Assembly: GCA_017610275.1 (NCBI GenBank)
Contig: JAFCCI010000002.1
Location: forward strand, 1-41,337
DNA: 41,337 nucleotides
Direction of reading: 5' to 3'
Source of the DNA: Candidatus Woesearchaeota archaeon
GTDB lineage: Archaea > Nanobdellota > Nanobdellia > Woesearchaeales > CG1-02-33-12
Part shown: piece after piece, positions 1 through 40,263 of the stretch
Numbering within the stretch: position 1 is the first letter of the stretch
Layout of the letters: every line of letters begins with the position of its first letter
The notes under the pieces: model-generated
What the model was told of the DNA's origin: nothing
Database searches by the model: none
What the model saw: the letters and a program-made list of their open reading frames with translations, nothing else
Translations under genes and position numbers: made by a program

Positions 1-1
1 A

Positions 2-364
2 GACACAATAAGAGTATCACTTACGACTAATCCTGTTGATGAAGTCAGAGCTGGAATTGAGATTTTGAATTCCCTTAACATAAGAAAAGGCAGAACAATA
101 ATTTCATGCCCTGGTTGCGGCAGAACAGAAATAGATTTAATTGGATTAACAAAGAACATTGAACAGGCAACAGCACACATAAAAAAACCAATTAAGATAG
201 CTGTTATGGGTTGTGCTGTCAATGGGCCAGGAGAGGCAAAAGAGGCTGATGTTGGTGTTGCTGGTGCAAAAGACTTTGGAATAATCTTCAGAAAGGGAAG
301 GGTTGTTAAGAAGGTAAAGAAAGATAAGATTCTTGAAGCGTTATTAGATGAAATAAGCAAATAG
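2..364 (+). CDS. ispG: 4-hydroxy-3-methylbut-2-en-1-yl diphosphate synthase (IspG), C-terminal part, truncated by window edge
   Basis: Frame 2 is open from base 2 (DTIRVSLTTNPVDEVRAGIEILNS...); SCPGCGRTEIDL Fe-S motif, AVMGCAVNGPGEAKEADVGVAG C-terminal signature. Confidence 0.93.
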   Translation, partial: DTIRVSLTTNPVDEVRAGIEILNSLNIRKGRTIISCPGCGRTEIDLIGLTKNIEQATAHIKKPIKIAVMGCAVNGPGEAKEADVGVAGAKDFGIIFRKGRVVKKVKKDKILEALLDEISK

Positions 365-373
365 GTAGATTAT

Positions 374-1063
374 ATGAAAACAACAGCAATAATACTAGCA
401 GCAGGAAAGGCAAAAAGAATGATGACCCATAAAAATAAACTCTTCTTAGAGCTGCGAAAACCAATCTTAATACATTCAATAGAGGCATTTGAAAACCACA
501 AATTAATCAATGAGATAATAATTGTTGTAAACAAAAAGGATTTAGAAGCTTGCAGCAAGATTGTTGAAAAAAATATATTTAAAAAAATAAAAAAAATAAT
601 GGTTGGGGGTGAAACAAGGCAGCAGTCATCATACAATGGTGTTATGGAAGCAGATTCTGATATTATCCTTATTCATGATGGGGCAAGACCGCTTGTAACA
701 GAGGATTCCATAACAAACTCAATCAGGGACTCCTTAAATTATGGAGCTTCTGTTGTTGCAGTACCTCTAAAGGAAACTGTAAAAAAGATTGATAACTGTT
801 TTGTTCAAAACACCCTTGACAGAGATGCATTATGGGTTGCCCAAACCCCACAAACATTCAGGGCAGATATTATTAAAGAGGCGCATGAAACAGCAAAAAG
901 GGATGGTTTTTTTGGAAAAGATGATTCTTCATTAGTTGAAAGAATAGGTTATAAGGTTAGGATATGCAGGGGGCATTATGAAAATTTAAAGATAACAACA
1001 CCAGATGATTTGGTAATAGCAAAGCATATATTTAAGAAAAATAATGGTGATTATTATGATTAG
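374..1063 (+). CDS. ispD: 2-C-methyl-D-erythritol 4-phosphate cytidylyltransferase (IspD)
   Basis: AIILAAGKAKRM nucleotidyltransferase motif, ILIHDGARPLV, TPQTFRADII; position in MEP cluster. Confidence 0.92.
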   Translation: MKTTAIILAAGKAKRMMTHKNKLFLELRKPILIHSIEAFENHKLINEIIIVVNKKDLEACSKIVEKNIFKKIKKIMVGGETRQQSSYNGVMEADSDIILIHDGARPLVTEDSITNSIRDSLNYGASVVAVPLKETVKKIDNCFVQNTLDRDALWVAQTPQTFRADIIKEAHETAKRDGFFGKDDSSLVERIGYKVRICRGHYENLKITTPDDLVIAKHIFKKNNGDYYD

Positions 1064-1535
1064 GGTTGGTATTGGCCAGGATTCTCATAGATTTATAATA
1101 AAAGACCAAAAAAGCCTTGTTCTTGGTGGTGTAATAATCCCTGATGAAAAGGGCTTAGAAGGAAATTCTGATGGTGATGTTGTGCTGCATGCTATTTTCA
1201 ATGCCCTTAGCCAGGCTGTTGGCAAAAGATCAATAGGTGTCTATTCTGATAAGATGTGCAGAGAAGGAATTAAAGACAGCAGAAAATACCTAAAAGTGGC
1301 ATTGAAGATGGTCAAAGACACTGGTTACAGGGTAAATAATATTGGTGTGATGATTGAGGCAAAAAAACCAAGAATTGAGCCATATGCTGATGATATGAAA
1401 AAGAGCATAGCAGGTATATTAATGATAACACAGGACATGATTGGCATAACAGCCACTTCTGGCGAGGGTCTTACTGCCTTTGGCAGAGGCATGGGAATAC
1501 AGGTATTTGCAATAGCAACTGTTATTAGGTGTTAA
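1044..1535 (+). CDS. ispF: 2-C-methyl-D-erythritol 2,4-cyclodiphosphate synthase (IspF); true start probably the internal ATG at MIRVGIGQDSH
   Basis: GIGQDSHRF, GNSDGDVVLHAIFNAL, TSGEGLTAFGRGMGIQ motifs. Confidence 0.92.
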   Translation: MVIIMIRVGIGQDSHRFIIKDQKSLVLGGVIIPDEKGLEGNSDGDVVLHAIFNALSQAVGKRSIGVYSDKMCREGIKDSRKYLKVALKMVKDTGYRVNNIGVMIEAKKPRIEPYADDMKKSIAGILMITQDMIGITATSGEGLTAFGRGMGIQVFAIATVIRC

Positions 1536-1539
1536 TATA

Positions 1540-2406
1540 ATGGAAATAATCCAAAAGGCATATGCCAAAATCAACCTTTCCTTGGATATCATTAAGAGGA
1601 TTTCTTCTGGATATCATAAAATAGAATTTGTTATACAGGAACTTGAGCTGCATGATATAATTAAAATAAAGAAAATAGAGAAAGGAATCAAACTTAATTG
1701 CAATACTAATATTTGTCCAGCTAATGAAAACCTTGCTTACAAAGCAGCAGAGCTTCTTATTAAAAAATTTAAAATAAACAATGGTGTTGAAATAACTATT
1801 GAGAAGAATATCCCTATTGCATCTGGTCTTGGCGGAGGAAGTTCAGATGCTGCTGCAACATTAAAAGGCATGAATAAGCTCTTTAACCTAAATTTATCAG
1901 AGGAGGAATTAATTGAAATATCTGGCGATATTGGCATGGATGTTCCATTCTTTATTCTTGGCAGCACGGTTCACGTAACTGGCCGGGGGGAAAATGTCAA
2001 AAGAATAGAAACCATGCCCAATAACATTTACTTTGTTCTGGCAAAACCAAAGTTTAGTATTTCAACAGAATATGCTTATAATAATATTGATTATGAAAAA
2101 ACAGGCAAGCAGCTAAAAACAGCTGAGATGATTAATACAATCATGGAAAAAGATATTAAAAAAATTGCAGAGAATATGCATAATGATTTTGAATATTCTA
2201 CCTTTAGGGAATATCCAATTATTAATGAAATTAAGCAAAAAATGATAGAAAATAAAGCATTAAATGCACTGATGTCTGGCTCTGGCCCAACTGTTTTTGG
2301 GATAACCAAAGAGAAAGCTGTTGCAGAAAACATATGTAACAGTTTAAAAGAAGACCCTTATTTTAAGAAAAATATTGAGTTTGTTTGTGTAACACAAACA
2401 AGGTGA
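1540..2406 (+). CDS. ispE: 4-diphosphocytidyl-2-C-methyl-D-erythritol kinase (IspE), GHMP kinase
   Basis: AYAKINLSLDI, IPIASGLGGGSSDAAATL (GHMP motif), ALMSGSGPTVFG. Confidence 0.92.
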   Translation: MEIIQKAYAKINLSLDIIKRISSGYHKIEFVIQELELHDIIKIKKIEKGIKLNCNTNICPANENLAYKAAELLIKKFKINNGVEITIEKNIPIASGLGGGSSDAAATLKGMNKLFNLNLSEEELIEISGDIGMDVPFFILGSTVHVTGRGENVKRIETMPNNIYFVLAKPKFSISTEYAYNNIDYEKTGKQLKTAEMINTIMEKDIKKIAENMHNDFEYSTFREYPIINEIKQKMIENKALNALMSGSGPTVFGITKEKAVAENICNSLKEDPYFKKNIEFVCVTQTR

Positions 2407-2410
2407 AATT

Positions 2411-3217
2411 ATGAAAGTTATTTGTGCAGAAAACATGGGATTTTGTTCTGGAGTCAAGAGGGCATTGGATATGGTTTTAAATGAAAGAAATGCTTATACA
2501 TTAGGGCAATTAATACATAATCCACAGGTTGTTGAACTTCTTGAGAAAAAAGGAATTAAAGTTGTTAATTCAGTTGATGAAGCTGATAGAACCTTGATTA
2601 TAACTGCTCATGGGACACCAAAATCAAATATTGAAAAAGCAAAGAAGAAGGAATTAAGAATAATTGATACAACTTGCCCCCTTGTAAAAAGGGTTCATGA
2701 GCTTGCTGTGGAGTTTGACAAAAAAGAATACAAAATAATTTTATTGGGTGATAAGGAACACCAGGAAGTTAAGGGGACTGCAAGTAATGCAAAAGATGTT
2801 ACAATTATAAGTTCTGATGAAGAAGCAAGCAAAATGAAGTTGGATAAGGCTTGTTTCCTGTCCCAAACAACGCAGTCATTAGAAAAATTTAAAGAAATTG
2901 CTGATATATTAAAGAAAAATATTCCTGAACTGAAAATTTTTAATACAATATGTGATGCTACAAAGAAAAGGCAGGATTCAGCTATGAATCTTGCTAAAAA
3001 GGTTGATTTAATGATTATTATTGGCGGTTATAACAGTGCTAATACAAAAAGATTAAAGGAAATATGCAACAAGATAGTTGAGACAAAACACATCGAAAAA
3101 GCTGATGAAATTGATTTTGAATGGTTTAAAGATAAAAAAATAGTTGGATTGACAGCCGGAGCATCAACACCTGATCAGGTAATTAAGAGAGTTAAAGATA
3201 GAATAGAAAAGTATTAA
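2411..3217 (+). CDS. ispH: 4-hydroxy-3-methylbut-2-enyl diphosphate reductase (IspH)
   Basis: AENMGFCSGVKRAL, TLGQLIHNPQVV, DTTCPLVKRVH, GLTAGASTPDQVI. Confidence 0.94.
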   Translation: MKVICAENMGFCSGVKRALDMVLNERNAYTLGQLIHNPQVVELLEKKGIKVVNSVDEADRTLIITAHGTPKSNIEKAKKKELRIIDTTCPLVKRVHELAVEFDKKEYKIILLGDKEHQEVKGTASNAKDVTIISSDEEASKMKLDKACFLSQTTQSLEKFKEIADILKKNIPELKIFNTICDATKKRQDSAMNLAKKVDLMIIIGGYNSANTKRLKEICNKIVETKHIEKADEIDFEWFKDKKIVGLTAGASTPDQVIKRVKDRIEKY

Positions 3218-3970: not shown

Positions 3971-5323
3971 TTAGTTTTTAATAAAAAAATTTATTTTATT
4001 TATGAGATTATTTGTTCTTTCTAGACCTTTCTGATAACCTAAGAGTTCATACCTATTTTTTATCATTGCCAATGGATTTTTTATAAGATAGTTGAGTCTT
4101 ATATCAGCACCTTTAATTCTTCCTGTTTTTTCTCCATATGCAATTTCTTCTTCATATTGACTGAGTTCTTGGTTAATCATTCCAACAGCATAGTTGAACT
4201 TATTATTTATCTCAAAATTAAGTTTATTTATTTTGGCAGTGTATTCATTAATTTGTTCTTCAAGCCTTTTTTCACTTTTCCAGTTGTTATAATTTTTTAT
4301 TTGCATTGTTTTTGCTTTAATTTCCTTGATTAATGATAATTCCTTATTTTGAAGTCCAAGATTAAGCAATGGATCAAGCTGCCTTTGTAAACTCTTAACC
4401 TTATATTTATCCTTGTTGATATTACCCTTTACATTTTCCAGGAGTATAAAGTAATCCTGTTTTTTCTTGTTTATTTGCTCTTCAATCTTATTCAGTTCTG
4501 AAAGCATCTTTGTGTTTCTAAAGCAGCTATACAAATACCTTAGGCTATTGTTCTTTGATATTAAATCTTCAAGCTTTTCCATGGTTCCGGGCTTTTCCCA
4601 GTTGTTAGCACGAAAAATGTTATTTACTAGTTTAAATTTAGTGTCTATTTTTTTTATTTCAGAATTTATTTTCTTTTTTGTATTTTCTTTAAGATTAACT
4701 ACCTGATTAAGAAGCAGCGTAATATCCTCCTTAAAGTAATTGTCATTTTGAAGTATCTGCATCTTTTCTGTTTCGGAATCAAGTTTCTCAATCATATCAT
4801 AAATCCTGTCTATTTTCTGTTTTGTGATATTTCCATTGAAGGTTATTTCAACAAGATTTTTGTTTTTTTGAATTTTTTCATTTAATTGGGTTTTTTCATG
4901 AATAAAATTAATTAATTGTTCACTGTTTTTAATATATTTTTTTTGAAAGTGTATTATTTCTCCTTTTTCAGCTATAGAATCAAAATTTTCATCAAACTTT
5001 TTGTTGAATTCAATTATTTTATTTAAGTTGTAAGAGTCATTGCATATCTTTTCTGCTATTGTTTCAAATGTCTCACCTTCCATTACCTGGTAATATCTTG
5101 AACTTTCAAATAAGATGTCCTGTTTCCTCTTAACTTTATAAGCTTCAACAGAACCATAACCAATAGATGTAATTATTAATAAACCAATAATTGCTTGTTT
5201 AATTTTTTTCTTAATAGAATTTATTTTTGACCCTTCATCATTTATCTTATTGCTTATTTTTCTGTCTAAATCATTAAATTTTGATTCAGTGTCCATTATG
5301 AGGCTTTCAAGTTTTGATTCCAT
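3971..5323 (-). CDS. Membrane-anchored coiled-coil protein with LysM-like domain
   Basis: Single N-terminal TM (AIIGLLIITSIGYGSVEAY), LysM-like YYQVMEGETFETIAEKICNDSYNLNKIIEFNK...IIHF, then long coiled coil. Confidence 0.6.
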   Translation of the reverse strand: MESKLESLIMDTESKFNDLDRKISNKINDEGSKINSIKKKIKQAIIGLLIITSIGYGSVEAYKVKRKQDILFESSRYYQVMEGETFETIAEKICNDSYNLNKIIEFNKKFDENFDSIAEKGEIIHFQKKYIKNSEQLINFIHEKTQLNEKIQKNKNLVEITFNGNITKQKIDRIYDMIEKLDSETEKMQILQNDNYFKEDITLLLNQVVNLKENTKKKINSEIKKIDTKFKLVNNIFRANNWEKPGTMEKLEDLISKNNSLRYLYSCFRNTKMLSELNKIEEQINKKKQDYFILLENVKGNINKDKYKVKSLQRQLDPLLNLGLQNKELSLIKEIKAKTMQIKNYNNWKSEKRLEEQINEYTAKINKLNFEINNKFNYAVGMINQELSQYEEEIAYGEKTGRIKGADIRLNYLIKNPLAMIKNRYELLGYQKGLERTNNLINKINFFIKN

Positions 5324-5324
5324 T

Positions 5325-6269
5325 TTATGTTTGGATTAATTCTTTAATTTTATTAAACTGATTACGATATTCTGATAACTCTTTTTTAGCAAATTCAAAT
5401 TTTCTCTCTCTTATGAATGGAGCAAAATAACTTTTCTTATTATTATCATTTAGATTGTATTTTTTCTCCAAATTAAACATATTTTTTCTTATTATTTCCA
5501 TACCTTCCACTGCTTTTTCGTTAAACAAATTCCTTAAATTCTGTATATGTGATTTATATTCCTCAAGAATAACTTTGTTTACAGCATAAATGGGTGATTG
5601 TAAATTAGTTGAAATATTCTTTTTTATATCATATAAAAGATAGATATCTTCTTCTGAGATTTTATATTGGTTAAGAAATATTCCTTTGATTTTTTTTATG
5701 TCCTTGCAAACATTATACAAATTTGCAAATTCAAGTGCTTTTTGTTCAGGATTTAATTCAGAATTAATTATCTTCTCTAAATGAGCTTTGTCAAGCATCG
5801 GCATCAGAACATCCATAAAAATTATTGCCTTTAAATCTTTTATATCATTGGATTGTTTTATTAAGCCCTTTATTTCATTATGATTTAATAATCCCATATA
5901 AGATGTAGAAAGAATTTCAAAATTCATGTCATTACAATACTTTAAAAGTGAATCAAATACTTTTGGTCTTTTATTGTATCTATGTTTTTCTTTTTCAACT
6001 AAGCCTATTGCACAATAATCAATTAAGGAATTTGAATCCTGTTTATTTAACAATTGGATAATTTCTTTTTTGTCTTTTTTGTCAAACCCAAGATAATAAT
6101 CAGATAAAATAGTATTCCTTAAGTCTGTAAAATCAACTTTTTCTTTAATTACCTCCTTTTTTAGATTGTCAATAAAATAATTTAATATTATATTGTCTTC
6201 AATTACATCAGAAATTCTTGTAAAATCAGGTTTTATAGTGCTTGCTATAGATTTAACTCTTTCTTCCAA
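5325..6269 (-). CDS. Hypothetical protein, helical, last-but-one gene of the E1/E2/JAMM operon
   Basis: 314-aa ORF; 1 nt from next ORF and co-directional with cluster. Confidence 0.6.
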   Translation of the reverse strand: MEERVKSIASTIKPDFTRISDVIEDNIILNYFIDNLKKEVIKEKVDFTDLRNTILSDYYLGFDKKDKKEIIQLLNKQDSNSLIDYCAIGLVEKEKHRYNKRPKVFDSLLKYCNDMNFEILSTSYMGLLNHNEIKGLIKQSNDIKDLKAIIFMDVLMPMLDKAHLEKIINSELNPEQKALEFANLYNVCKDIKKIKGIFLNQYKISEEDIYLLYDIKKNISTNLQSPIYAVNKVILEEYKSHIQNLRNLFNEKAVEGMEIIRKNMFNLEKKYNLNDNNKKSYFAPFIRERKFEFAKKELSEYRNQFNKIKELIQT

Positions 6270-6323: not shown

Positions 6324-7025
6324 TTACGATTTTCCATTTCTCCAGTAAATAAAATTTTCAGTGATTTCATTATCATCTAAAACCTTATATTTTCTATGAT
6401 GAATATTAAACTTGTTATAAGCAGGATCAACAAGAATAGGATTATTTTGGACATAAACAACAGCACATCCATGATTAACTTTTTTGTTATCACAATCAAC
6501 CTTAACACTTGCATACTTTGACTTTAGCCCTGCTGCCCGCGCCATTGTTATATAGAGAAAAGCCATCTCTCCGCAAATCCCTAATTTATTTTCTAAAGTT
6601 TCCTTTGAGTTTTGATATCTATTGTTATTCCTTAAATTATCATACTCTATATTTTGGTGTATCCAATTAAATATTCTTTTGGCTTTTTCCTCATCATCCT
6701 TTATATTAGTAGTATAATTCTTAATTATTTTTACAAGTTCAGAGTTTATTATAAAAGGGTTTTCAATGCTTTTATCAGCTAATAAAACATTATATCCCTT
6801 GGTAATATTATTAAGATTAAAATATGGAACAGATGGAACTTTATACTCTTTTTTGATTTTTTCAATGAGATATGTATTTTGATTATTCTTCCTAATATTT
6901 TTCAACTTATCTTCTGAATTCTTTCTTTTAATTTTGTTTAGAAGGTCATCACTATTTTTTCTCTGTGTTTTTCTTATGACTTTCCCATTTATTATTTCCC
7001 ACAAATTCATTTTAACCTGAAGCAT
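6324..7025 (-). CDS. Transglutaminase-like cysteine peptidase-fold protein
   Basis: C-H-D triad context: KLGICGEMAFLYITMARAAGLKSKYA / VNHGCAVVYV / PILVDPAYN; overlaps upstream ORF by 14 nt. Confidence 0.75.
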   Translation of the reverse strand: MLQVKMNLWEIINGKVIRKTQRKNSDDLLNKIKRKNSEDKLKNIRKNNQNTYLIEKIKKEYKVPSVPYFNLNNITKGYNVLLADKSIENPFIINSELVKIIKNYTTNIKDDEEKAKRIFNWIHQNIEYDNLRNNNRYQNSKETLENKLGICGEMAFLYITMARAAGLKSKYASVKVDCDNKKVNHGCAVVYVQNNPILVDPAYNKFNIHHRKYKVLDDNEITENFIYWRNGKS

Positions 7026-9276
7026 CGTAGAAAATTTTGTTGAATTCTTTTTGGAGTTGAGGGCTTAATTTGGATATATCATCAGAAAGAGTCTTACTCA
7101 ATTCAATTTTGGTATTGTCTTTAATTTTGTATTGGTCTTTTAGTTCATATGGTTTAAGAGAGCCCTTAGTTCCAGCATTTTTCAATGATCCTATATTGTA
7201 TTTTGTTCCAAACTCCCTAATCTTTTGCTGCCTGTTTTTTTGATTTTGATTACTTGCTGAGCTTTCATTAGCTGCATAAACTAATTCCCATAACCCTGGA
7301 TTTCCAGTTTCCTCATCCATAACCCCCCAAAGGGTATCTCCTTTTTGAATTACATACTCCCTTTTGTTATCTTGATTATTTATAGCTGTTTTGCCAATAT
7401 GCTGAGTGATATCCTCCCTAGTATAATTTACTTTGTTACCAGGATTGTAAACAACTAAAGGAATATTTTCTCTTTCTATAATCTGCTCTGCTTTTTTAGT
7501 TGACTGGATATCTTTAATTGAATTAATTCGCTTATGATTAGCATACATAAGTGATCCTGCCCCAATTGCAAGGGATAATACTCCTATAAGACCAATTTTC
7601 CAGTATTTTTTCACAGTCCTTTTTATGAAACTTTTTGTTTTTACAGAATAATCTCTCAAGGTGTTACTTATATAATTGAGTGGATTATATTTGATTATAT
7701 TTGGCGGCTCTTTTTTATTATTTTTTCTTCTCCAGTTCACATTATTTCCATTATTTTCATATTTATGAAGGATCCTGTAAAGTGTAGATGTGCTGAATTT
7801 TTTCTCTGGCTCATTTTCCCGCCTGTTTTTATTTAACTCACTGCGTAAATTCTTAACCTTAACATTTGTGTTATTATACAAATTAATAATATCTGCTTTA
7901 TACTCATCAGGAATCTTATTTGCTCTTTTTTCTATATTATAACCATTATTTTCTGCTTCCCTTAGAATTTTGTCAAGAGTATAATTATTGATATTATATT
8001 TGCTGCATATCTGTTTTCTGGTTAATTCTTTATAATTGTTATACTTATCTATAATCCCCTCTAGGTTATTATGCGGAGTTCTATGTACAACTTCATTTAT
8101 TTGAGGCTCAATAGTCTTTTTCTCTTCAGCTGAATTGTTTAATTTATTATCATATATTATTGCTGGCAATTGTTTTATATGTTCAGTTGGAGTCTCTTTT
8201 TTATATATATTCTTTTGTTCTTCACCTTTGTCTTTTAGCTTTTCTTCAGGAGTTTTTGTTATTATTTCTTCTAAGTTTTTATTCACTTCCTCATTTTTTT
8301 CAGAAGGCTTAACCACAATCATATTAAAATTATTAACCCTTGTTTCTACTCCACTTATGATTTTTCTTAATTCATAGTCTAATACTTTTCTAGTTGGAAG
8401 CTTTCCGTTATGGTGAACCCTTTTTGATACATGATCAACTAATTTTTTATAGTCTTCAAATTGAACGTTTCCATCATCTATAACCTCTAGAGCAACATCT
8501 TTTCCTTTTACATAATTTATTTTTTCATCTCCCTTCCCTTTATAAGAAACTTCTAAGTAAGGTTGTATATTTTTGCTGTTGGTTACCATGCTATAAGCAT
8601 ATGAAATTTTTATTGGGTCAGCTTTTTCAACTTTGGCTATTTTAACATCCTTAAGAAGAGGTATAATCTCTGAATTAATCTTATCTATTGACAACCTGAA
8701 AGAAGGACTATTGTTATTATTTTGATTTATTAATAAATAATTTTTACCATCTTTATTAGAATAATTTAAGTTATAACCTCCTTCCAAATTGTCTATATCA
8801 ACGAAATTGTCTATAGTAATTTTATTATTAGGGAACACACTATAAGAAACTCCTTTAAAATTTTCTCTGTCATCTGGAGAATGAAAAGGTCTATGATCCA
8901 GTCCATGGCTATGCCACCAGCCTATTATTTTAGACCCTCTTCTCTGAATTTTTTTGAATTCATTCATCTCAGAAGATGGATCACCAATACATTTTGAAGA
9001 TGTAACAGATTGGTTATGAGCTAAATATATATCATTAACAACATCTTTATTGGTTCCTTCTGGCGCAATTAAATAACCCATGGCTTCTACTGATTCATTA
9101 AATAATATTGGTGCTATCGTAGAATAAAAGTTTGCCTTTAATAAAGCACTTTTTTTTATTTTTAATTTTTTAATTAAATTATTATTATTATTATTATTTG
9201 AGTTTAGAGTACTATTTAAGTTGAAATGCTCTTCTTTTTTTAAAAGTAATTTCCTTATTTTATTTTTTATTGGCAT
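7012..9276 (-). CDS. JAB/JAMM metallopeptidase domain fused to HTH-like linker, TM helix and LysM domain
   Basis: JAMM: VEAMGYLIAPEG...GWWHSHGLDHRPFHSPDD; two HTH-like segments (RKQICSKYNINNYTLDKILREA; STSTLYRILHKY); TM WKIGLIGVLSLAIGAGSLMYA; LysM YVIQKGDTLWGVMDEETGNPGLWELVYAAN. Confidence 0.75.
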   Translation of the reverse strand: MPIKNKIRKLLLKKEEHFNLNSTLNSNNNNNNNLIKKLKIKKSALLKANFYSTIAPILFNESVEAMGYLIAPEGTNKDVVNDIYLAHNQSVTSSKCIGDPSSEMNEFKKIQRRGSKIIGWWHSHGLDHRPFHSPDDRENFKGVSYSVFPNNKITIDNFVDIDNLEGGYNLNYSNKDGKNYLLINQNNNNSPSFRLSIDKINSEIIPLLKDVKIAKVEKADPIKISYAYSMVTNSKNIQPYLEVSYKGKGDEKINYVKGKDVALEVIDDGNVQFEDYKKLVDHVSKRVHHNGKLPTRKVLDYELRKIISGVETRVNNFNMIVVKPSEKNEEVNKNLEEIITKTPEEKLKDKGEEQKNIYKKETPTEHIKQLPAIIYDNKLNNSAEEKKTIEPQINEVVHRTPHNNLEGIIDKYNNYKELTRKQICSKYNINNYTLDKILREAENNGYNIEKRANKIPDEYKADIINLYNNTNVKVKNLRSELNKNRRENEPEKKFSTSTLYRILHKYENNGNNVNWRRKNNKKEPPNIIKYNPLNYISNTLRDYSVKTKSFIKRTVKKYWKIGLIGVLSLAIGAGSLMYANHKRINSIKDIQSTKKAEQIIERENIPLVVYNPGNKVNYTREDITQHIGKTAINNQDNKREYVIQKGDTLWGVMDEETGNPGLWELVYAANESSASNQNQKNRQQKIREFGTKYNIGSLKNAGTKGSLKPYELKDQYKIKDNTKIELSKTLSDDISKLSPQLQKEFNKIFYDASG

Positions 9277-9277
9277 T

Positions 9278-10789
9278 TTATTTCTTATAAAAATCTTGGC
9301 TGCAAGGACAACCCTTTCTTGGATTTCTTATATGATTTCCTAAGATAATTCGATTAGCTGAAAGAGAATTATAGTATATACTATCCCTTATTGTAAAACC
9401 ATAAACTTCTGGGTAAAATATTTTCTTGACTTCTCCAACAATCATTGCACTAATTATCTGGTTTGACATAACAACACTTGGATCATGGTTATCTGCAATA
9501 CAACTAGTCGGGGTAATATCATTTTCTTTAGCCTCCTTTTGTGCCAGTAAATACACATTCTTATGGCAATCTATACAAGCAGTTTTTCCAGGATTATATA
9601 CACTAACCTGTCCTGAAAAAGGTTCTGTTCCTGCATCTATATATGGAATCTTATTTTTTACAGCTATTTTATTAATAAAAGCCCTAGTGGTAAAAGTATC
9701 GACTCCCCCTATAATTAAATCACAATTAAGTTTTAGAAGTTCTGACTCACCGATAAGTTTTACCCCTTGGCTTCTTTCATTTTCATTAAGATATTCACCT
9801 ACCTTTCCATATAATCCTTTAATATTAATATTAGGGTTTATGTTCTTCAAAGCTTTAGAAAGCACGTCTACTTTTCTTTTGCCTATATTATTTTCAAAAT
9901 TATAAAGAATTTGTCGATTTGGATTAGTAGCATCTACTTCATCCATATCAATCATATATATTTGATTTATTCCTAAAAGGGATAATCCTAAACCAACAAA
10001 ATTTCCTACTGCTCCTGCACCTATCATTACAATTTTTTTATCCTTAAATAAATCTTTTTCATTAAGATAACAGTCAAAATTAAGAGTTATGTCTGATTTG
10101 TCCTCAAATCTTTTATTTGATAATAAATTATAAGTTACTGCTTTTTTTAGTAATTTATCATTTGGTTTTAATTTAAGAATAGATTTTCTAATCTCTTCTG
10201 TAGCCAATCCACCAATGAGCCCATTAGGTATGTTTCCCTGTTTGGAGTTTTCAAAATCTAAAAATAAATAATCTTCTATAGTTTTTGAATTATTGTTTTT
10301 TGATAAAAGGATTTTTTCTACTTGATTCATTGGTTCATAAACCATTATCTTTCCTTTGTTTTCGCTTGTAGAAGCAGTAATTAAAGGTATTCTTAACCTA
10401 TCTGAAAGTTTTAGACTATTCAATTTTGAGCTCGGTTTGTTTGTAAGATCAACTAAAACATTTGGTTTTCCTATTAAATCATAAAAAGGCTCAGAATGTA
10501 TGCCCAACACATTAATATTTTCATTCATCTGAGAGATTATTTTTTCAAGGTGCTTAACCTTACTTATTTTTTCCTTTTTTTTATAGTAGTTAAAAAAAAG
10601 AAATTCATTAATGTCATTGTGATAATAGTTATTATCAATAATTCTTATATTTCCAACTTGCAATCCTGTAAGATTAGCTAAAACAAAATTACATAAAGAA
10701 CCAGCCCCTATTATTGTTACAAGAGAACCATCTAACTTTTTTTGGTCCCAATTTGTTATTCTTTCTTGTCTATCGGTCCTTTCTGAAAT
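9278..10789 (-). CDS. E1/ThiF-like adenylating enzyme with two Rossmann-type halves (N-terminal degenerate, C-terminal active-like)
   Basis: ORF track begins at an internal TTG (10663); frame stays open upstream to 10789 and encodes ISERTDRQERITNWDQKKLDGSLVTIIGAGSLCNFVLANLTG. C-terminal half: MIGAGAVGNFVGLGLSLLGINQIYMIDMDEVDATNPNRQILY...GKRKVDVL, YIDAGTEPFSGQVSVY, CIDC...CPC Zn ligands, TPTSCIADNHDPSVV catalytic-Cys region. Confidence 0.82.
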   Translation of the reverse strand: MSERTDRQERITNWDQKKLDGSLVTIIGAGSLCNFVLANLTGLQVGNIRIIDNNYYHNDINEFLFFNYYKKKEKISKVKHLEKIISQMNENINVLGIHSEPFYDLIGKPNVLVDLTNKPSSKLNSLKLSDRLRIPLITASTSENKGKIMVYEPMNQVEKILLSKNNNSKTIEDYLFLDFENSKQGNIPNGLIGGLATEEIRKSILKLKPNDKLLKKAVTYNLLSNKRFEDKSDITLNFDCYLNEKDLFKDKKIVMIGAGAVGNFVGLGLSLLGINQIYMIDMDEVDATNPNRQILYNFENNIGKRKVDVLSKALKNINPNINIKGLYGKVGEYLNENERSQGVKLIGESELLKLNCDLIIGGVDTFTTRAFINKIAVKNKIPYIDAGTEPFSGQVSVYNPGKTACIDCHKNVYLLAQKEAKENDITPTSCIADNHDPSVVMSNQIISAMIVGEVKKIFYPEVYGFTIRDSIYYNSLSANRIILGNHIRNPRKGCPCSQDFYKK

Positions 10790-11636
10790 TTATACCACCA
10801 AACAGTTTTTTCTTTCTTTTATGCATTATAAGTTTGTCATCGCTGATTAATTTTGTTTTTAGCTCTTCTAATATTCCATGGTAATCTAAAATCTCCTTAT
10901 CGGATATTATTTCTTTAAGTTTAACATCTTTTTTTATGATTACCTCCTTTTCAGGATATTTAATAGCTATCTCAGCGTAAGGAAGCATAGAATAAAAGCG
11001 ATTAAAAACAAGACTATAAGCAAAAGACACACCCCTATATTTTTTTCTTCTAATACTCTTTACCCCAAGGGTTACTAGCTTTGAAAGATTATTTACCTCT
11101 ATTTCAACATAATCTTCAAAAGGATTTGATCCCTTTACAATAAGGTATTTTTTACCATCATCTTCTTTATTATAGTTTACTTTTAGTGGACCATCCAATA
11201 ACTGAATTATTTCTCTTTTTAACGCTTTTTTATTATGTGGAAAAACTGCTAGATAAAGATTTTTGAAATTATCATCATCATCTGGTGAATGAAAAGGATG
11301 AGATTGGGCATGACTATGCCACCACCCCATTATCTTATAACCTTTATTTTCAATTTCCTTTATTGCATCCATATCAGTTCCCACCTCAGCACTATAATGT
11401 GTACTTTCTACATTCTGTTTATTTGACAAAAAAATATCTTTTACAATACAATCATCATCATTCTTTGGTGTTATAAGATAACCGCCGCACTCAAGCGGTT
11501 TCCTGAAAATCTTGCAAGCTAATGAAGAATATGCTTTTGCTTTTTTGTAAGCATAGTCAGTTATAGGTACCTCATTCAGAAAATCTTTTGTCTTATTTTT
11601 TAATTTGTTTTCTAAAATATATTTTATTTTATCCAT
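10770..11636 (-). CDS. JAB/JAMM metallopeptidase (deubiquitinase-like)
   Basis: LECGGYLITP glutamate and full JAMM motif GWWHSHAQSHPFHSPDDD (HxH-x7-S-xx-D). Confidence 0.85.
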   Translation of the reverse strand: MDKIKYILENKLKNKTKDFLNEVPITDYAYKKAKAYSSLACKIFRKPLECGGYLITPKNDDDCIVKDIFLSNKQNVESTHYSAEVGTDMDAIKEIENKGYKIMGWWHSHAQSHPFHSPDDDDNFKNLYLAVFPHNKKALKREIIQLLDGPLKVNYNKEDDGKKYLIVKGSNPFEDYVEIEVNNLSKLVTLGVKSIRRKKYRGVSFAYSLVFNRFYSMLPYAEIAIKYPEKEVIIKKDVKLKEIISDKEILDYHGILEELKTKLISDDKLIMHKRKKKLFGGINFRKDR

Positions 11637-11644
11637 CTTACCTC

Positions 11645-12913
11645 CTATTTGAATTTATTTGTAACCGGAATATGTTCCCTATTCAGTTCTTCTAAACTAA
11701 TTAGATTATCCCCAAAGTTTTCTTTATTTAACACTAAATGGGGCATCAAATCACCAAAATAACCTGATCTTAAGGCTGGTTCACCAATCTCCTTTAGAAG
11801 GTAGCATACTTTTTCAGCAATCTTGCCTTTTTTATCAAATTCATTTAGTTTTTTACTTACCTCTTCTTTTCTATACTTATCACCATAACAAATTCTTTGT
11901 TCACTTACATTTTTAGTGGGAATTAAAGGATGAGAATATATATCAATTATAACTGGATAACCAACTTCAATCTTATTTTTTTTTGGTGTTAGTTCAACTC
12001 CTAACTTACATTTTTCAAATTTATAATATTCATCAGTCTTAAGCGATTTAAGGGCAAATGGTTTTTCCTTAATAAAAACATAAAAATGGTTATAACTATT
12101 TTTATTTGTTTTTAAGAAACCTATATTTCCTTCTTCATAACATCTTTTATTTACTATACTCAGAAAATTGTCTCTTTGTTTAAGCAGTTGGATTCTTTCG
12201 GTTAATTTCTGTGAGCCATAATCCGCAGCTTTAGTTATCTCAGTAAATAATAATTTTGAGTATTCATTTTCTAAATTCTTTAAGTTCTTTATGAAACTAT
12301 ATGAATAACATGAATTATTTATTTTAAATTTGTTTCTTATTTTTTGATAAAATGTTTTAGGTATTTTTTTGATTTCATATACATTACCATTAGAGATAAG
12401 TATGTTGTTTTTTATTATACCCCTTTCTAGCATGGAGTATTCCCTATTTAAAATATATTCAAAACCATCTTTAGTATTTTTATAGTTATAACTATTTTCT
12501 TTTAATTCTAAAATCTTAAGGATTTTTTTATTTAATTTTTTTTTATGATTCACTTTTTTTTTCTTTTTCTTATGGTTAACTAAAGGAAAAATTTCCCCAA
12601 CAGCAAAATTAATAAGTTCATATTCATTCTTCAATTTATTTATATCTTTTTTTATTAATTGACTTTCTTCTGATTTTGTTTTGGTTAGATTATTAAAAAT
12701 ATCTTTAAATTCATTTTCATTGTTTTTAAAATAAATCATTTCAAGAGATTTTAGAGTTTCCGATTCCTTTAGATTATATTTATTATTAAGCATATAAAAA
12801 AAGCTATTGCCCTCTTCAACCTTAGGCTCAACTGTATAAAGCCTATTGTTCACGATAAGGCAAAGCTTAGATTCTTCTGCAATACTAATAAATAAGGGTT
12901 TTGGGAGATTCAT
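11645..12913 (-). CDS. Putative E2/UBC-like conjugating protein with long N-terminal extension
   Basis: C-terminal YPVIIDIYSHPLIPTKNVSEQRICYGDKYR resembles prokaryotic E2 core (YP...HP.....G-ICxG) with Cys in ICYG; sits between candidate Ubl and JAMM genes. Confidence 0.55.
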   Translation of the reverse strand: MNLPKPLFISIAEESKLCLIVNNRLYTVEPKVEEGNSFFYMLNNKYNLKESETLKSLEMIYFKNNENEFKDIFNNLTKTKSEESQLIKKDINKLKNEYELINFAVGEIFPLVNHKKKKKKVNHKKKLNKKILKILELKENSYNYKNTKDGFEYILNREYSMLERGIIKNNILISNGNVYEIKKIPKTFYQKIRNKFKINNSCYSYSFIKNLKNLENEYSKLLFTEITKAADYGSQKLTERIQLLKQRDNFLSIVNKRCYEEGNIGFLKTNKNSYNHFYVFIKEKPFALKSLKTDEYYKFEKCKLGVELTPKKNKIEVGYPVIIDIYSHPLIPTKNVSEQRICYGDKYRKEEVSKKLNEFDKKGKIAEKVCYLLKEIGEPALRSGYFGDLMPHLVLNKENFGDNLISLEELNREHIPVTNKFK

Positions 12914-12914
12914 A

Positions 12915-13349
12915 TTACTTCAATAGAATATAATCCAGCCCAGAAGAACCCTCTGGTGTTACATGAACTTCCAGATCAAGTCCTTTATACACTTTTTCAT
13001 CAATAGATTTTGGTTCAAAATAATCTTTTGCTATTTCTGTTGGACTTATTAATTCTTGAGTTTCACCATTTCTATTTTGAAAATATTTGTACTCTCCATC
13101 ACTATCTAACGCTTTTATTCCTAACATTTTTTTAGGTCTTTTTGATTCTTCTAAAACGTTTTCTACACTACCCATTACTTCTTTTTCTGTTTCATTAAAA
13201 CCATTATCTTTTATTAGGTATTTTATTAAATCATTCATTGTCAAATTTGGTTCACCATACAACTTCTCACTTACATCTTTAACTATTGCATCTGTTTGTG
13301 TTATTGGACACTTTATACTTGCAATATATGTTTCTTTTTCATCTGCCAT
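12915..13349 (-). CDS. Candidate ubiquitin-like modifier or substrate protein (144 aa), first gene of operon; paralogous to 16188-16613
   Basis: Short protein immediately upstream (1 nt) of E2-like gene; shares YIASIK, NDLIKYLIKDNGFNETEKE, KDYF, LDLEV with 141-aa protein; small-residue C-terminal PEGSSG followed by LDYILLK tail. Confidence 0.45.
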   Translation of the reverse strand: MADEKETYIASIKCPITQTDAIVKDVSEKLYGEPNLTMNDLIKYLIKDNGFNETEKEVMGSVENVLEESKRPKKMLGIKALDSDGEYKYFQNRNGETQELISPTEIAKDYFEPKSIDEKVYKGLDLEVHVTPEGSSGLDYILLK

Positions 13350-13524: not shown

Positions 13525-14601
13525 TCACGAAAGATAATCATCCATTCTATTACCTGAATTTTCAACCCTGTTAAGTTGGGTTGTTATGATATTATCTGCT
13601 AGTTTTCTAATTCCAGGATGTGTTCCTAAATAATAGCTGTTAAGTATATTTGGATTGTTTGCAATGGATCCCATATTTTTTAGACCGTCATTTAATTTTT
13701 CATGCAAATCATTTGAATAATTACCTAACATAGCAACAGATTCATATAATACGTTGATAATCCTGCCTTCTGATATAAGAGTACCCCATTGTTTTTTTGT
13801 ATTTCTAACATAACGTAAGATCCCACTTGTTTTATCACCAATTATTTCACAAACTTCTATTCCTGTAGTAAGCATATCTTCAAGATCATTAAGAATTTCA
13901 TCTTCTTTAGACCTATCACCTATCTTATTAGCTGCACGATTTTTTTGGTGTATAACTGTTCTTGATTTTCTTTCCGCATTCTTATATCCCTTTTTAAAAA
14001 TAAAAAATTTATTATCACCTTTTTTTGTTGATTTAATTCTCTCTCCTGATTCTAAGTAAACTTCATTCAACTCTGGTTCCATTTTTTTTAATTTATTATA
14101 AGTTTTTGTGCTATCAGCCCATTCTTCAAGTATACTATCCCTATAAATTATTAATTCTTTTAATTGTTTTTTTGAATCAAAAATAATGCTTTTTAGCCCT
14201 GAATTCATATTTGATATATTGTTTAGTTGTTTATCAAATATATCTTCTATTGAGTATAGCTCCTTACCAAATATTTTTGATTTGATAAAGTCCACTGAAC
14301 TTACATAAATTTTGTAAGGAATTGGTTTACCAGCAAGGAGTTTTCTATTCATCTCTAAGTTTAATTTAGCTATATCTTTTATATTTTCTTCTAATCCAAC
14401 AAAATCAGATCCATTTGAAGATATTCTTGAATTTTTTAGATTATATACAATTGAATTTTCTTCTGGAAAATAATCATTTTTATGCTCATTTTTTAAAAAC
14501 CCATACTTTTCAAGTTTTTGAATTAATAAATCTTGATTGCCCATTTGCTTTTGACTATTTGCTTTAATTTTTTTTATTAAATTTTCATCCATTTTTTTCA
14601 C
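13525..14601 (-). CDS. Hypothetical helical protein (358 aa) upstream of the modifier operon
   Basis: Long ORF, co-directional; no recognised motif. Confidence 0.6.
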   Translation of the reverse strand: MKKMDENLIKKIKANSQKQMGNQDLLIQKLEKYGFLKNEHKNDYFPEENSIVYNLKNSRISSNGSDFVGLEENIKDIAKLNLEMNRKLLAGKPIPYKIYVSSVDFIKSKIFGKELYSIEDIFDKQLNNISNMNSGLKSIIFDSKKQLKELIIYRDSILEEWADSTKTYNKLKKMEPELNEVYLESGERIKSTKKGDNKFFIFKKGYKNAERKSRTVIHQKNRAANKIGDRSKEDEILNDLEDMLTTGIEVCEIIGDKTSGILRYVRNTKKQWGTLISEGRIINVLYESVAMLGNYSNDLHEKLNDGLKNMGSIANNPNILNSYYLGTHPGIRKLADNIITTQLNRVENSGNRMDDYLS

Positions 14602-16187: not shown

Positions 16188-16613
16188 CTATTTTGTTCTT
16201 TCTCCATCAGGAGCAGGACAACACATAAGTTCTAAATTCAATGCCTTATACTTTATTTCGTCAAGAGTGTTATTTTTAAAATAATCTTTTGATATTTCAA
16301 GCCCAATTTTTTCTATAATTTGCCCATTCTCGTTTTTATCTAACATCTCATAATTATCCTGTCCATTAATCTTTATCAGTAACATATTATAACTCTTTCT
16401 TCCTCCTTTTATTTCATATTTTAAGGCTTTTTTTAGTTCTTTTTCCTCTTCATCAAATCCATCATCCTTTAATAAATAACCTATTAATTCGTTAATATTT
16501 AAGCTTGGGTTATCTTTTAGTTTTTTAGTTATATCTTTCATAATTGGCATATAATAATCATTATACTTTTTTACACTTGCAATATATGGTTCATCTTTCT
16601 GTTCCATTTTCAC
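16188..16613 (-). CDS. Paralogue of the 144-aa candidate modifier
   Basis: YIASVK, DITKKL, NINELIGYLLKDDGFDEEEKE, SKDYF, LDE..YKALNLEL aligned with 12915-13349; C-term CCPAPDGERTK. Confidence 0.55.
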   Translation of the reverse strand: MKMEQKDEPYIASVKKYNDYYMPIMKDITKKLKDNPSLNINELIGYLLKDDGFDEEEKELKKALKYEIKGGRKSYNMLLIKINGQDNYEMLDKNENGQIIEKIGLEISKDYFKNNTLDEIKYKALNLELMCCPAPDGERTK

Positions 16614-16631
16614 TCAAAATATAATGGGCTC

Positions 16632-16672
16632 TTTTTAATAAGCATTTCTAAGAAAAAAGATGAGAATTTCCG
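16632..16672 (-). promoter_or_regulatory. 41-bp promoter/operator element (copy 2) upstream of modifier paralogue
   Basis: tttttaataagcatttctaagaaaaaagatgagaatttccg. Confidence 0.75.
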
Positions 16673-16739
16673 CTATATATGCAATATTTCCGAAATAAGG
16701 TAATTTAGAGTTAAATAAAAAGAAGTGATATAATTATAT

Positions 16740-17708
16740 TTAGTCTAATATAATTTTTGTTTCCAGCAAAGTTAATTTTCCAGAATCTAAAACTTTTAGT
16801 AATCTTGGATTCAATGAGTATATTTTATTTTTGATTTCTTTAACTTCAGGAAAATGAATTGAATGCTTTCTATTAAATTGTTTATTTAATCCATAACTTT
16901 TTAATTCATGTTTATTACAGAAAAGGATTCCTTCCCTAGTTCTATATTTAGCTTGGATTTCTAAATCTGTTGGTATTTTATTAGGGAATTTCATTGTACA
17001 TTCTCCTTCTTTTCCATCTCTAACATCTCCACAATGGTTCAGGCTTGCAAATGCGTGGCCAAATTCATGTAAAGCAGCCTGTTTTATTATTTCTCTTCCG
17101 CTATTTTTGTATCTCTTTATACTTATTATTGCCCCCTGATCGCCACCCTCTCCAATCATAAACCTATAGCCATATAATCTATCATATAAATCAAAATCAG
17201 ATAATAATATTACCTCATAGTGCGGTCTTTCATTTTGAATAGGATCTTCCTTTAAATCTTTCCAAAATACATATAAATCACATTGGCCATTATTAGATAT
17301 ATCATAATTTTTTCTTTCTGGATTAAATGATCTTTTAATATACCAGTCTATGCTTTGGTGAGGTTCATTTCCTTCATTCCAATAACCAAAACTGTGTATT
17401 GGCAAAATTTCTTTCATATTTATAGAATTTAACACTTCTTCTAATGCCTCAACAACAATTCCAAGATTTCTATCAGAAGTTCCTTTATCACATGTTACAA
17501 AAATAGGTTTAAATCTATAAAAAGGATTTATGGGTGTTTGTAATGAGAGAATTTTATTATCATATTTCACTCTTTCAATCAAGCTTTTTCCTCTCTTTCC
17601 TGCTTTTTCTATCGATTGTTTTATTGTTAGTGTTATCTTATTCCCATCATATTTAAAATTTTTTTTAGAATTTAATAATTTAATTAGTTCTGAATTATTT
17701 TCATCCAT
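16740..17708 (-). CDS. Putative metzincin/archaemetzincin-like zinc metallopeptidase
   Basis: HEFGHAFASLNHCGDVRDGKEGECTMKF: HExxH plus downstream His, Cys residues and Met-turn-like CTM. Confidence 0.6.
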   Translation of the reverse strand: MDENNSELIKLLNSKKNFKYDGNKITLTIKQSIEKAGKRGKSLIERVKYDNKILSLQTPINPFYRFKPIFVTCDKGTSDRNLGIVVEALEEVLNSINMKEILPIHSFGYWNEGNEPHQSIDWYIKRSFNPERKNYDISNNGQCDLYVFWKDLKEDPIQNERPHYEVILLSDFDLYDRLYGYRFMIGEGGDQGAIISIKRYKNSGREIIKQAALHEFGHAFASLNHCGDVRDGKEGECTMKFPNKIPTDLEIQAKYRTREGILFCNKHELKSYGLNKQFNRKHSIHFPEVKEIKNKIYSLNPRLLKVLDSGKLTLLETKIILD

Positions 17709-39306: not shown

Positions 39307-40263
39307 CTACTTTTTCTTGTTTTTGTAGTCACCTAACTTCTTCTTTAGATTCTTGTATTCTTTCATGTATAAACTTATTGTAGGTTTTAAGTTTTTGTTT
39401 AGTTCATATGCTTTTAGTGTGCTATAATATTCTACCCTGTTCTTGAAATCTATATTAATTGGTGGCAGGCCATGCTTGATCAATATATTATTTAGGAGAA
39501 TTCTTCCAACTCTTCCATTTCCATCTTTGAAAGGATGAATATTCTCAAATTGGTTATGAACTACTGCACCAAGAACCAAAGCTGGGTATTTTGTCTTATT
39601 TTTATCATACCAATTAATAAGCTCTTTTAATAAGTGGTTTATTCTTGATTGAGATGCTCCTTCATGCACAACATTTCCTTTGCTGTTCATCACAACTACT
39701 TCTTCACCTCTCTTTCTTAGCTTTCCTGCAAAAGGCTTTGCGTTTTTGAAAACTATCTTATGTATTTGTTTAATTAGAGATATTGATACATGCTCTTTTG
39801 TTCCTCTTATAAACCGTATTGCCTCATCAACGCCATATGCTTCTGCAATATCCTCTTTTGACTTTTTTGGCCATTTATCTTTTTCCAAGAGGTCATTTAC
39901 TTCTTTTTGGTTTAATCTGCTTCCTTCTATTGCGTTTGTATTATATGTAAATATTTCTGAGAAAGCCTGCCAGTCTTTTTTTGAGAGATGGGATATTTTG
40001 AGAGGAATTTTTGACTCTAATGCTTTAATTTCTTCTATCTCTTCCTTAGAGAGCTCAAAATGCAAAGGGTCTTTTATAATATTGTACTTGTGTATTTCTT
40101 CTAAAATAAGCTTTTCTGCAATTTGTTTTCTTTCGTTCAGTTTTTCTTTTGTCAAATCCTGCCCTAAGTATTTCCTAAATTTATGGACTTTTTGGCCCTC
40201 TCTGTATGAATGAGCAAGATAATACTTTATTCTCTTCCCAGATTCCCTTTTTTCTATGTGCAT
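39307..40263 (-). CDS. Fic-domain AMP-transferase-like protein with N-terminal inhibitory motif
   Basis: NIHPFKDGNGRVGRILLNN (HPFxxGNGRxxR); TNAIEGSRL inhibitory-helix-like. Confidence 0.93.
   Translation of the reverse strand: MHIEKRESGKRIKYYLAHSYREGQKVHKFRKYLGQDLTKEKLNERKQIAEKLILEEIHKYNIIKDPLHFELSKEEIEEIKALESKIPLKISHLSKKDWQAFSEIFTYNTNAIEGSRLNQKEVNDLLEKDKWPKKSKEDIAEAYGVDEAIRFIRGTKEHVSISLIKQIHKIVFKNAKPFAGKLRKRGEEVVVMNSKGNVVHEGASQSRINHLLKELINWYDKNKTKYPALVLGAVVHNQFENIHPFKDGNGRVGRILLNNILIKHGLPPINIDFKNRVEYYSTLKAYELNKNLKPTISLYMKEYKNLKKKLGDYKNKKK

Follow-up and report, generated by a model that had tools for sequence, protein, structure and literature searches.

A linked modifier, E2-like, JAMM and E1-like gene set in a woesearchaeotal genome is probably an exchangeable ubiquitin-like conjugation cassette

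The bacterial Bil operons are among the closest described counterparts of the genes treated here. BilA has two tandem ubiquitin-like domains, BilD has a helical CYS domain of about 80 aa within its active adenylation domain (AAD), and BilB carries a CEHH motif, that is C, E at +6, H at +8 and H at +13 (PMC11354881). In archaea, the Caldiarchaeum pro-ubiquitin carries a tail after its Gly-Gly, and a JAMM protease has been demonstrated to cut this tail off before activation by E1 (PMC5654768, PMC6043591). The window analysed here is a stretch of 41,337 nt from a Candidatus Woesearchaeota archaeon (GCA_017610275.1, contig JAFCCI010000002.1, positions 1-41,337, forward strand). From 13349 to 9278 on its minus strand lie open reading frames (ORFs) for a candidate ubiquitin-like modifier (Ubl), an E2-like conjugating enzyme, a JAMM peptidase and an E1-like activating enzyme, in series and almost touching, in full agreement with the coordinates of the first-pass annotation. 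We think that the four genes are probably an exchangeable ubiquitin-like conjugation cassette, serving accessory protein control coupled to unfolding. Searching the open-licence literature for DPANN or Woesearchaeota together with ubiquitin-like, we found no description of this cassette family, and an earlier description is possible; a JAMM-3 group and operons that combine JAMMs with homologues of ubiquitin, E1 and E2 are mentioned (PMC6043591) and could overlap with the present cassettes.

Of 44 loci fetched by the E2 alone, 39 contain an E1 gene, and 32 contain both E1 and JAMM genes on one strand and no more than 4.5 kb away. E2-JAMM-E1 and Ubl-E2-JAMM-E1 are the orders seen most often, but this tally includes loci fetched by E1, so that the 39/44 and 32/44 figures are the unbiased ones. 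The four-gene set is not a chance neighbourhood, and a survey of other DPANN genomes gave a conserved Ubl-E2-JAMM-E1 linkage. Relatives searched with the E2 alone yielded two congeners with the whole cassette (L021 and L022), and distant copies in other families. The E2 profile finds the family in 37 of the 371 genomes searched in the host phylum (about 10%), and among the Desulfobacterota it is present in 15 of 297 sampled genomes (about 5%). A scan with the E1 alignment revealed about 350 relatives of the E1, with operons in Woesearchaeota, Pacearchaeota, Aenigmatarchaeota, Acetothermia, KSB1 and many Desulfobacterota, where the same scan of genome contigs with a single E1 protein had given nothing; a named strain, Desulfoferrobacter suflitae DRH4 (L148), has a version of the cassette. 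The first-pass annotation had seen an archaeal system, a framing that does not hold now that Desulfobacterota, Acetothermia and KSB1 have cassettes too. Plasmid matches were confined to the adenylation domain in other proteins of the ThiF family, and viral contigs gave partial E1 matches only.

The cassette also behaves as a unit within its genus. It sits in a LysM locus that is conserved in the window's family. In five relatives, three of them congeners and two of them other members of the family, this locus reads p168-p358-HTH-LysM-p314-LysM450-UppS (HTH, helix-turn-helix), without the Ubl, E2, JAMM, E1 and transglutaminase-like genes, and in these cassette-free loci (L250-L252, L254, L255) the p358 homologue adjoins the HTH-LysM gene. 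In the window, p358 (13525..14601, minus strand) is a conserved gene of the host beside the site of insertion, and p314 with LysM450 (3971..6269, minus strand) is the host neighbourhood on the other side, its order kept in the cassette-free relatives; both lie outside the cassette. DNA identity between the window and the two cassette-bearing congeners is 57-76% in the four-gene block, against 84-89% in p168, 63-78% in p358 and mostly 75-93% in the LysM gene. Synonymous divergence (dS) is 1.1-1.5 in the block, 0.43-0.63 in most flanks and 0.56-0.94 in p358, and the two congeners are mutually 87-97% identical inside the block. The block is thus far more diverged than its flanks, and the simplest reading is that the four genes have been exchanged as one unit. 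All four are under purifying selection, with ratios of non-synonymous to synonymous divergence (dN/dS) of 0.21-0.35 between the window and the congeners.

Presence or absence at one site within a genus, together with block exchange, is typical of defence loci. With the patchy distribution (37/371 and 15/297 genomes) and a gene order as in BilABCD, it would suit a divergent Bil-type antiviral system, in which the modifier is attached to virion proteins and spoils the progeny, and the JAMM serves for processing. We nevertheless find this explanation unlikely, as the tandem Ubl, the 80-aa CYS domain and the CEHH motif are all absent, the Bil operon in its published description (PMC11354881) does not include the AAA partners treated below, and PADLOC gave only generic E1, JAB and AAA matches, with no defence-island survey made. 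Patchy occurrence fits defence or some other accessory function, and an AAA partner fits unfolding or proteolysis at least as much. Accessory protein control coupled to unfolding is in our opinion more likely than Bil-type defence, and the two may overlap.

The candidate modifier (12915..13349, minus strand, 144 aa) and the E2-like protein have no significant match in Pfam, NCBIfam or PADLOC, and a Pfam run across all members of both families brought out no coherent family. The AlphaFold2 (AF2) model of the modifier is a single beta-grasp unit (predicted local distance difference test, pLDDT, 87.7; predicted template modelling score 0.81). Its strongest Foldseek matches in PDB are chains holding the USP15 UBL (probability 0.99), and CsUb, NEDD8, ubiquitin and ISG15 are listed, none with an E-value below 1e-3; a PDB sequence search with the Ubl profile gave chance matches only. 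The short modifier proposed at first is in this way borne out as a predicted beta-grasp-like protein whose best structural matches are ubiquitin-like domains. The homologues add to this, since a Gly-Gly at most 22 residues from the C-terminus occurs in 23 of 42 ORFs upstream of E2 and in 19 of 389 other ORFs (Fisher p ~1e-15). The tail that follows is 1-17 aa long, and QxGG is invariant in an alignment of 18 selected modifiers, archaeal and bacterial.

A C-terminal (pro-)Gly-Gly is thus present in much of the family, the Woesearchaeota sets of L066 and L070 included, but it is absent from the window's modifier, which ends in PEGSSG-LDYILLK. The congeners end in GGSG-LDYILLK (L021) and AGSR-LDYILSK (L022), and the GSSG and AGSR ends indicate that the Gly-Gly has drifted in the window's genus. 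A second Ubl-like protein without Gly-Gly (16188..16613, minus strand, 141 aa; Ubl profile match 9e-45) is encoded between a methyltransferase gene and a CYTH gene in the window and is present in L021 and L022; in L251 and L252 the methyltransferase and CYTH genes are adjacent without it. It adjoins a 322-aa protein with a zincin-like motif, HEFGHAFASLNH (16188-17708 for the pair), and both are missing between the methyltransferase and CYTH genes of L251 and L252. The cassette of this genus might be degenerate or repurposed, with a Gly-Gly-less modifier acting non-covalently and the JAMM-LysM protein described below in another role. The altered modifier ends, the second Ubl without Gly-Gly and an E2-like gene without the Cys at another place in the genome speak for this. 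The catalytic residues of E1, E2 and JAMM are intact, however, and dN/dS is 0.2-0.35 in all four genes (0.23-0.26 for the modifier), so we regard degeneration as rather doubtful, while noting that it is compatible with the conjugation cassette as the best explanation at the level of the family.

The E2-like protein (11645..12913, minus strand, 422 aa) has its predicted catalytic residue, Cys342 (codon 11890-11888), in an HP...ICYG context with an HP-x-IC motif. The Cys is kept in 50 of 51 homologues and His-Pro 328-329 in 48 of 52. In the AF2 model (pLDDT 86) the C-terminal part runs through a helix, a beta meander, the HP/Cys loop and helices, an order in agreement with UBC topology, and the N-terminal part resembles two beta-hairpin/helix repeats. 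The UQ_con model does not detect these proteins, and a PDB sequence search with their profile gave chance matches only. When aligned by hhalign to UQ_con the active-site Cys falls into register, with weak pairwise P values of 0.01-0.12; the comparison set consisted of Lokiarchaeota UQ_con proteins taken genome-wide and three further E2 sequences. Against column-shuffled decoys the bacterial-type alignment beats 60 of 60 and the broad alignment 59 of 60. Judged by sequence and model, homology to the UBC superfamily is likely; of the original assignment as a UBC/E2-like protein the conserved Cys and His-Pro stand, and the UBC fold is unproven. The same genome encodes, near a Cdc48 gene, a 152-aa E2-like protein (L085:9478-9936, contig C53) in which Asp replaces the catalytic Cys (SHPLL...PIDLG), possibly an inactive E2 variant.

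The JAMM peptidase (10770..11636, minus strand, 288 aa) matches Pfam Prok-JAB at 1.3e-9 and has the full HxHx7SxxD motif as HSHAQSHPFHSPDD, as had been claimed, and HxHx6-8SxxD is kept in 36 of 42 homologues. Pro-Ubl processing and deconjugation are its predicted functions. The E1-like enzyme (9278..10789, minus strand; ThiF 1.4e-49) was also recognised correctly as a two-Rossmann protein, with an inactive adenylation domain (IAD) and an AAD. Its length had been listed as 461 aa from a TTG, but the open frame extends upstream as far as an ATT at 10789, where it overlaps the JAMM stop. The protein is then 503 aa long, and its extra residues (SERTDRQERITNWDQKKLDGSLVTIIGAG...) line up with the first Rossmann strand in other members. 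The two congeners share both this strand and the ATT directly after the JAMM stop, and such a non-standard start suggests translational coupling (window 10787-10789). The enzyme has CxxC and CxC Cys pairs and a catalytic Cys (codon 9502-9500); only 21 residues separate the CxxC pair from this Cys, with no insertion, and the E1 thus has no CYS domain. Among homologues, GxG, DxD, N, R, K and D are kept in 45 of 45 and the catalytic Cys in 43 of 43.

The E1 also matches ThiF/MoeB models, and the ThiS/MoaD carriers end in Gly-Gly too, so that a sulfur-carrier or cofactor pathway with ThiF/MoeB and a JAMM, and no protein conjugation, could be imagined. This is highly improbable: the best PDB sequence match of the two-domain E1 is the NEDD8 E1 UBA3 (5.5e-18), an E2-like protein with a nearly invariant Cys (50/51) is linked to it, the modifiers have tails of 1-17 aa, there are AAA unfoldase partners, and no thiamine or molybdopterin gene was recognised in the cassette by Pfam.

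Downstream of E1 the window has a second JAMM domain (Prok-JAB 3.9e-6), fused to an HTH-transmembrane-LysM protein (7012..9276, minus strand, 754 aa), and a transglutaminase-like protein of Cys protease/isopeptidase fold (6324..7025, minus strand, 233 aa; Transglut_core 3.2e-17). In the cassette-free relatives the HTH-LysM gene is shorter, at 309-362 aa, and lacks a JAMM domain. The transglutaminase-like gene is absent from these five relatives, and is found near distant cassettes in L025, L028 and L033. The operon had been said to continue into LysM and transglutaminase genes, and this is half right: the LysM genes, present without the cassette in five relatives, are mostly host neighbourhood, and only the second JAMM and the transglutaminase-like gene travel with the cassette.

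Many relatives have an AAA+ gene in addition, namely the Desulfobacterota operons that are complete in the retrieved sequence and about ten archaeal loci. The order in Desulfobacterota is Ubl-E2-(ORF of 160-190 aa)-AAA-JAMM-E1, some operons being rotated with E1 first, and in several archaeal operons an AAA gene of the L026 group stands first or last. Of the members tested, that of L026 is ARC/Mpa-like (TIGR03689 at 1.7e-112 over its full length, below the curated cut-off), and that of L118 is nearer the ClpX type. The AAA proteins of Desulfobacterota and of L090 and L096 are ClpX-like (clpX at 4.3e-79, below the curated cut-off). The ORF of 160-190 aa between E2 and the ClpX-like AAA gene (L143:5459-5998 and its equivalents) is an orphan, and had no Pfam match in the two that were tested. 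We see an even chance that the family forms a self-contained prokaryotic ubiquitin-unfoldase pathway, in which one horizontally exchanged operon holds modifier, E1, E2, JAMM and an AAA+ ring of its own. The ring would be ARC/Mpa-like in DPANN archaea, and ClpX-like in Desulfobacterota and in a few of the archaea, and the whole would be a minimal counterpart, beyond Asgard, of the coupling of ubiquitin, Rpn11 and Rpt.

From the parts, their linkage and catalytic residues, the purifying selection, the exchange of the block and its presence or absence, all of which can be read in the sequence, we infer a chemistry, targets and a role as follows. The modifier would be made with a short C-terminal tail, which the JAMM peptidase would cut off. 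E1 would then adenylate the exposed end and bind the modifier by a thioester to its SC-motif Cys, and E2 would take it over on Cys342 and pass it to targets. The choice of targets is put on the N-terminal repeats of E2 or on a partner, since no RING E3 was found nearby (a pattern search of the fetched loci gave no RING-pattern ORF). The JAMM enzymes would reverse the tagging. In many relatives the dedicated ARC/Mpa-like or ClpX-like ring may unfold the tagged protein, and the window has no such ring but has the membrane LysM-linked second JAMM and the transglutaminase-like protein in its place.

Several observations weigh against such a conjugation and unfolding system. No E3 was found, no AAA gene lies near the window's cassette and none of the AAA partners occurs in the window; in the genome (76% complete) there is a Cdc48, and a proteasome subunit matched once. 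Foldseek with the full E2 model found no E2 among PDB or viral models, and the full JAMM motif is missing in 6 of 42 homologues. The main reservation about the window's own copy is the modifier, as two of the three species no longer have the canonical Gly-Gly (GSSG in the window, AGSR in one congener). If the reading is true, DPANN archaea and Desulfobacterota have complete E1-E2-JAMM tagging, often tied to an AAA+ unfoldase, which is the pairing central to the ubiquitin-proteasome system, and the cassette offers a testable way into the question of how protein unfolding came to be linked with ubiquitin-like tagging.

A family of large proteins with 15 members lies near E1 in ten loci (L026:3658-5301, L024:4354-5970 and others), and may be an adaptor or an E3 substitute. 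Elsewhere in the window, bacterial-type genes of the methylerythritol phosphate pathway stand in a row at 1-3217 (the end of GcpE/IspG, IspD, IspF, an IspE-like GHMP kinase and IspH/LytB), and homologues of the IspE-like and IspH genes occur in the congeners too. A Fic/DOC family protein is encoded at 39307-40263 (Pfam 2.1e-18).

The chemistry of the cassette is of a known kind. The likeness to Bil noticed at the outset is real in so far as Ubl, E2, JAMM and E1 follow the same order in the window and many relatives, the E1 has an IAD and an AAD, and a JAMM processes the pro-modifier in Bil. Membership is rejected: the cassette modifier has a single Ubl domain, the E1 lacks the CYS domain of about 80 aa, the CEHH motif occurs in none of the 65 E2s whose HP..C site is recognisable, the E2 has a large N-terminal region, and an AAA+ unfoldase is frequent in the operons. 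The Caldiarchaeum/Asgard operon (CsUb, E1, E2, the RING protein srfp and Rpn11) is likewise archaeal, with a tailed pro-modifier, JAMM, E1 and E2, but the E2 of the cassette is not seen by the UQ_con model, its E1 has no CYS domain and its modifier is very divergent. CBASS Cap2/Cap3 and Bub share E1/E2/JAB-type chemistry and weak E1 matches (PADLOC E1-E2 8e-15; Citrobacter BubCD 2.7e-4); the cassette, in contrast, has separate E1, E2 and Ubl genes with no E1-E2 fusion, and there was no CD-NTase-like match among ten window proteins scanned. The PRTRC cassette holds Ubl, E2, JAB and ThiF parts, and the E1 of L148 matches PRTRC_ThiF at 1.6e-14, but the cassette E1 has two domains and no PRTRC E2 or Ubl model matched. 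Haloarchaeal SAMP conjugation needs no E2, although the JAMM matches the model of the haloarchaeal desampylase HvJAMM1 (1.4e-6). The Pup ligase is of a different type and not an E1/E2 pair, and yet the ARC/Mpa-like AAA proteins of the relatives parallel the recognition of Pup by Mpa.

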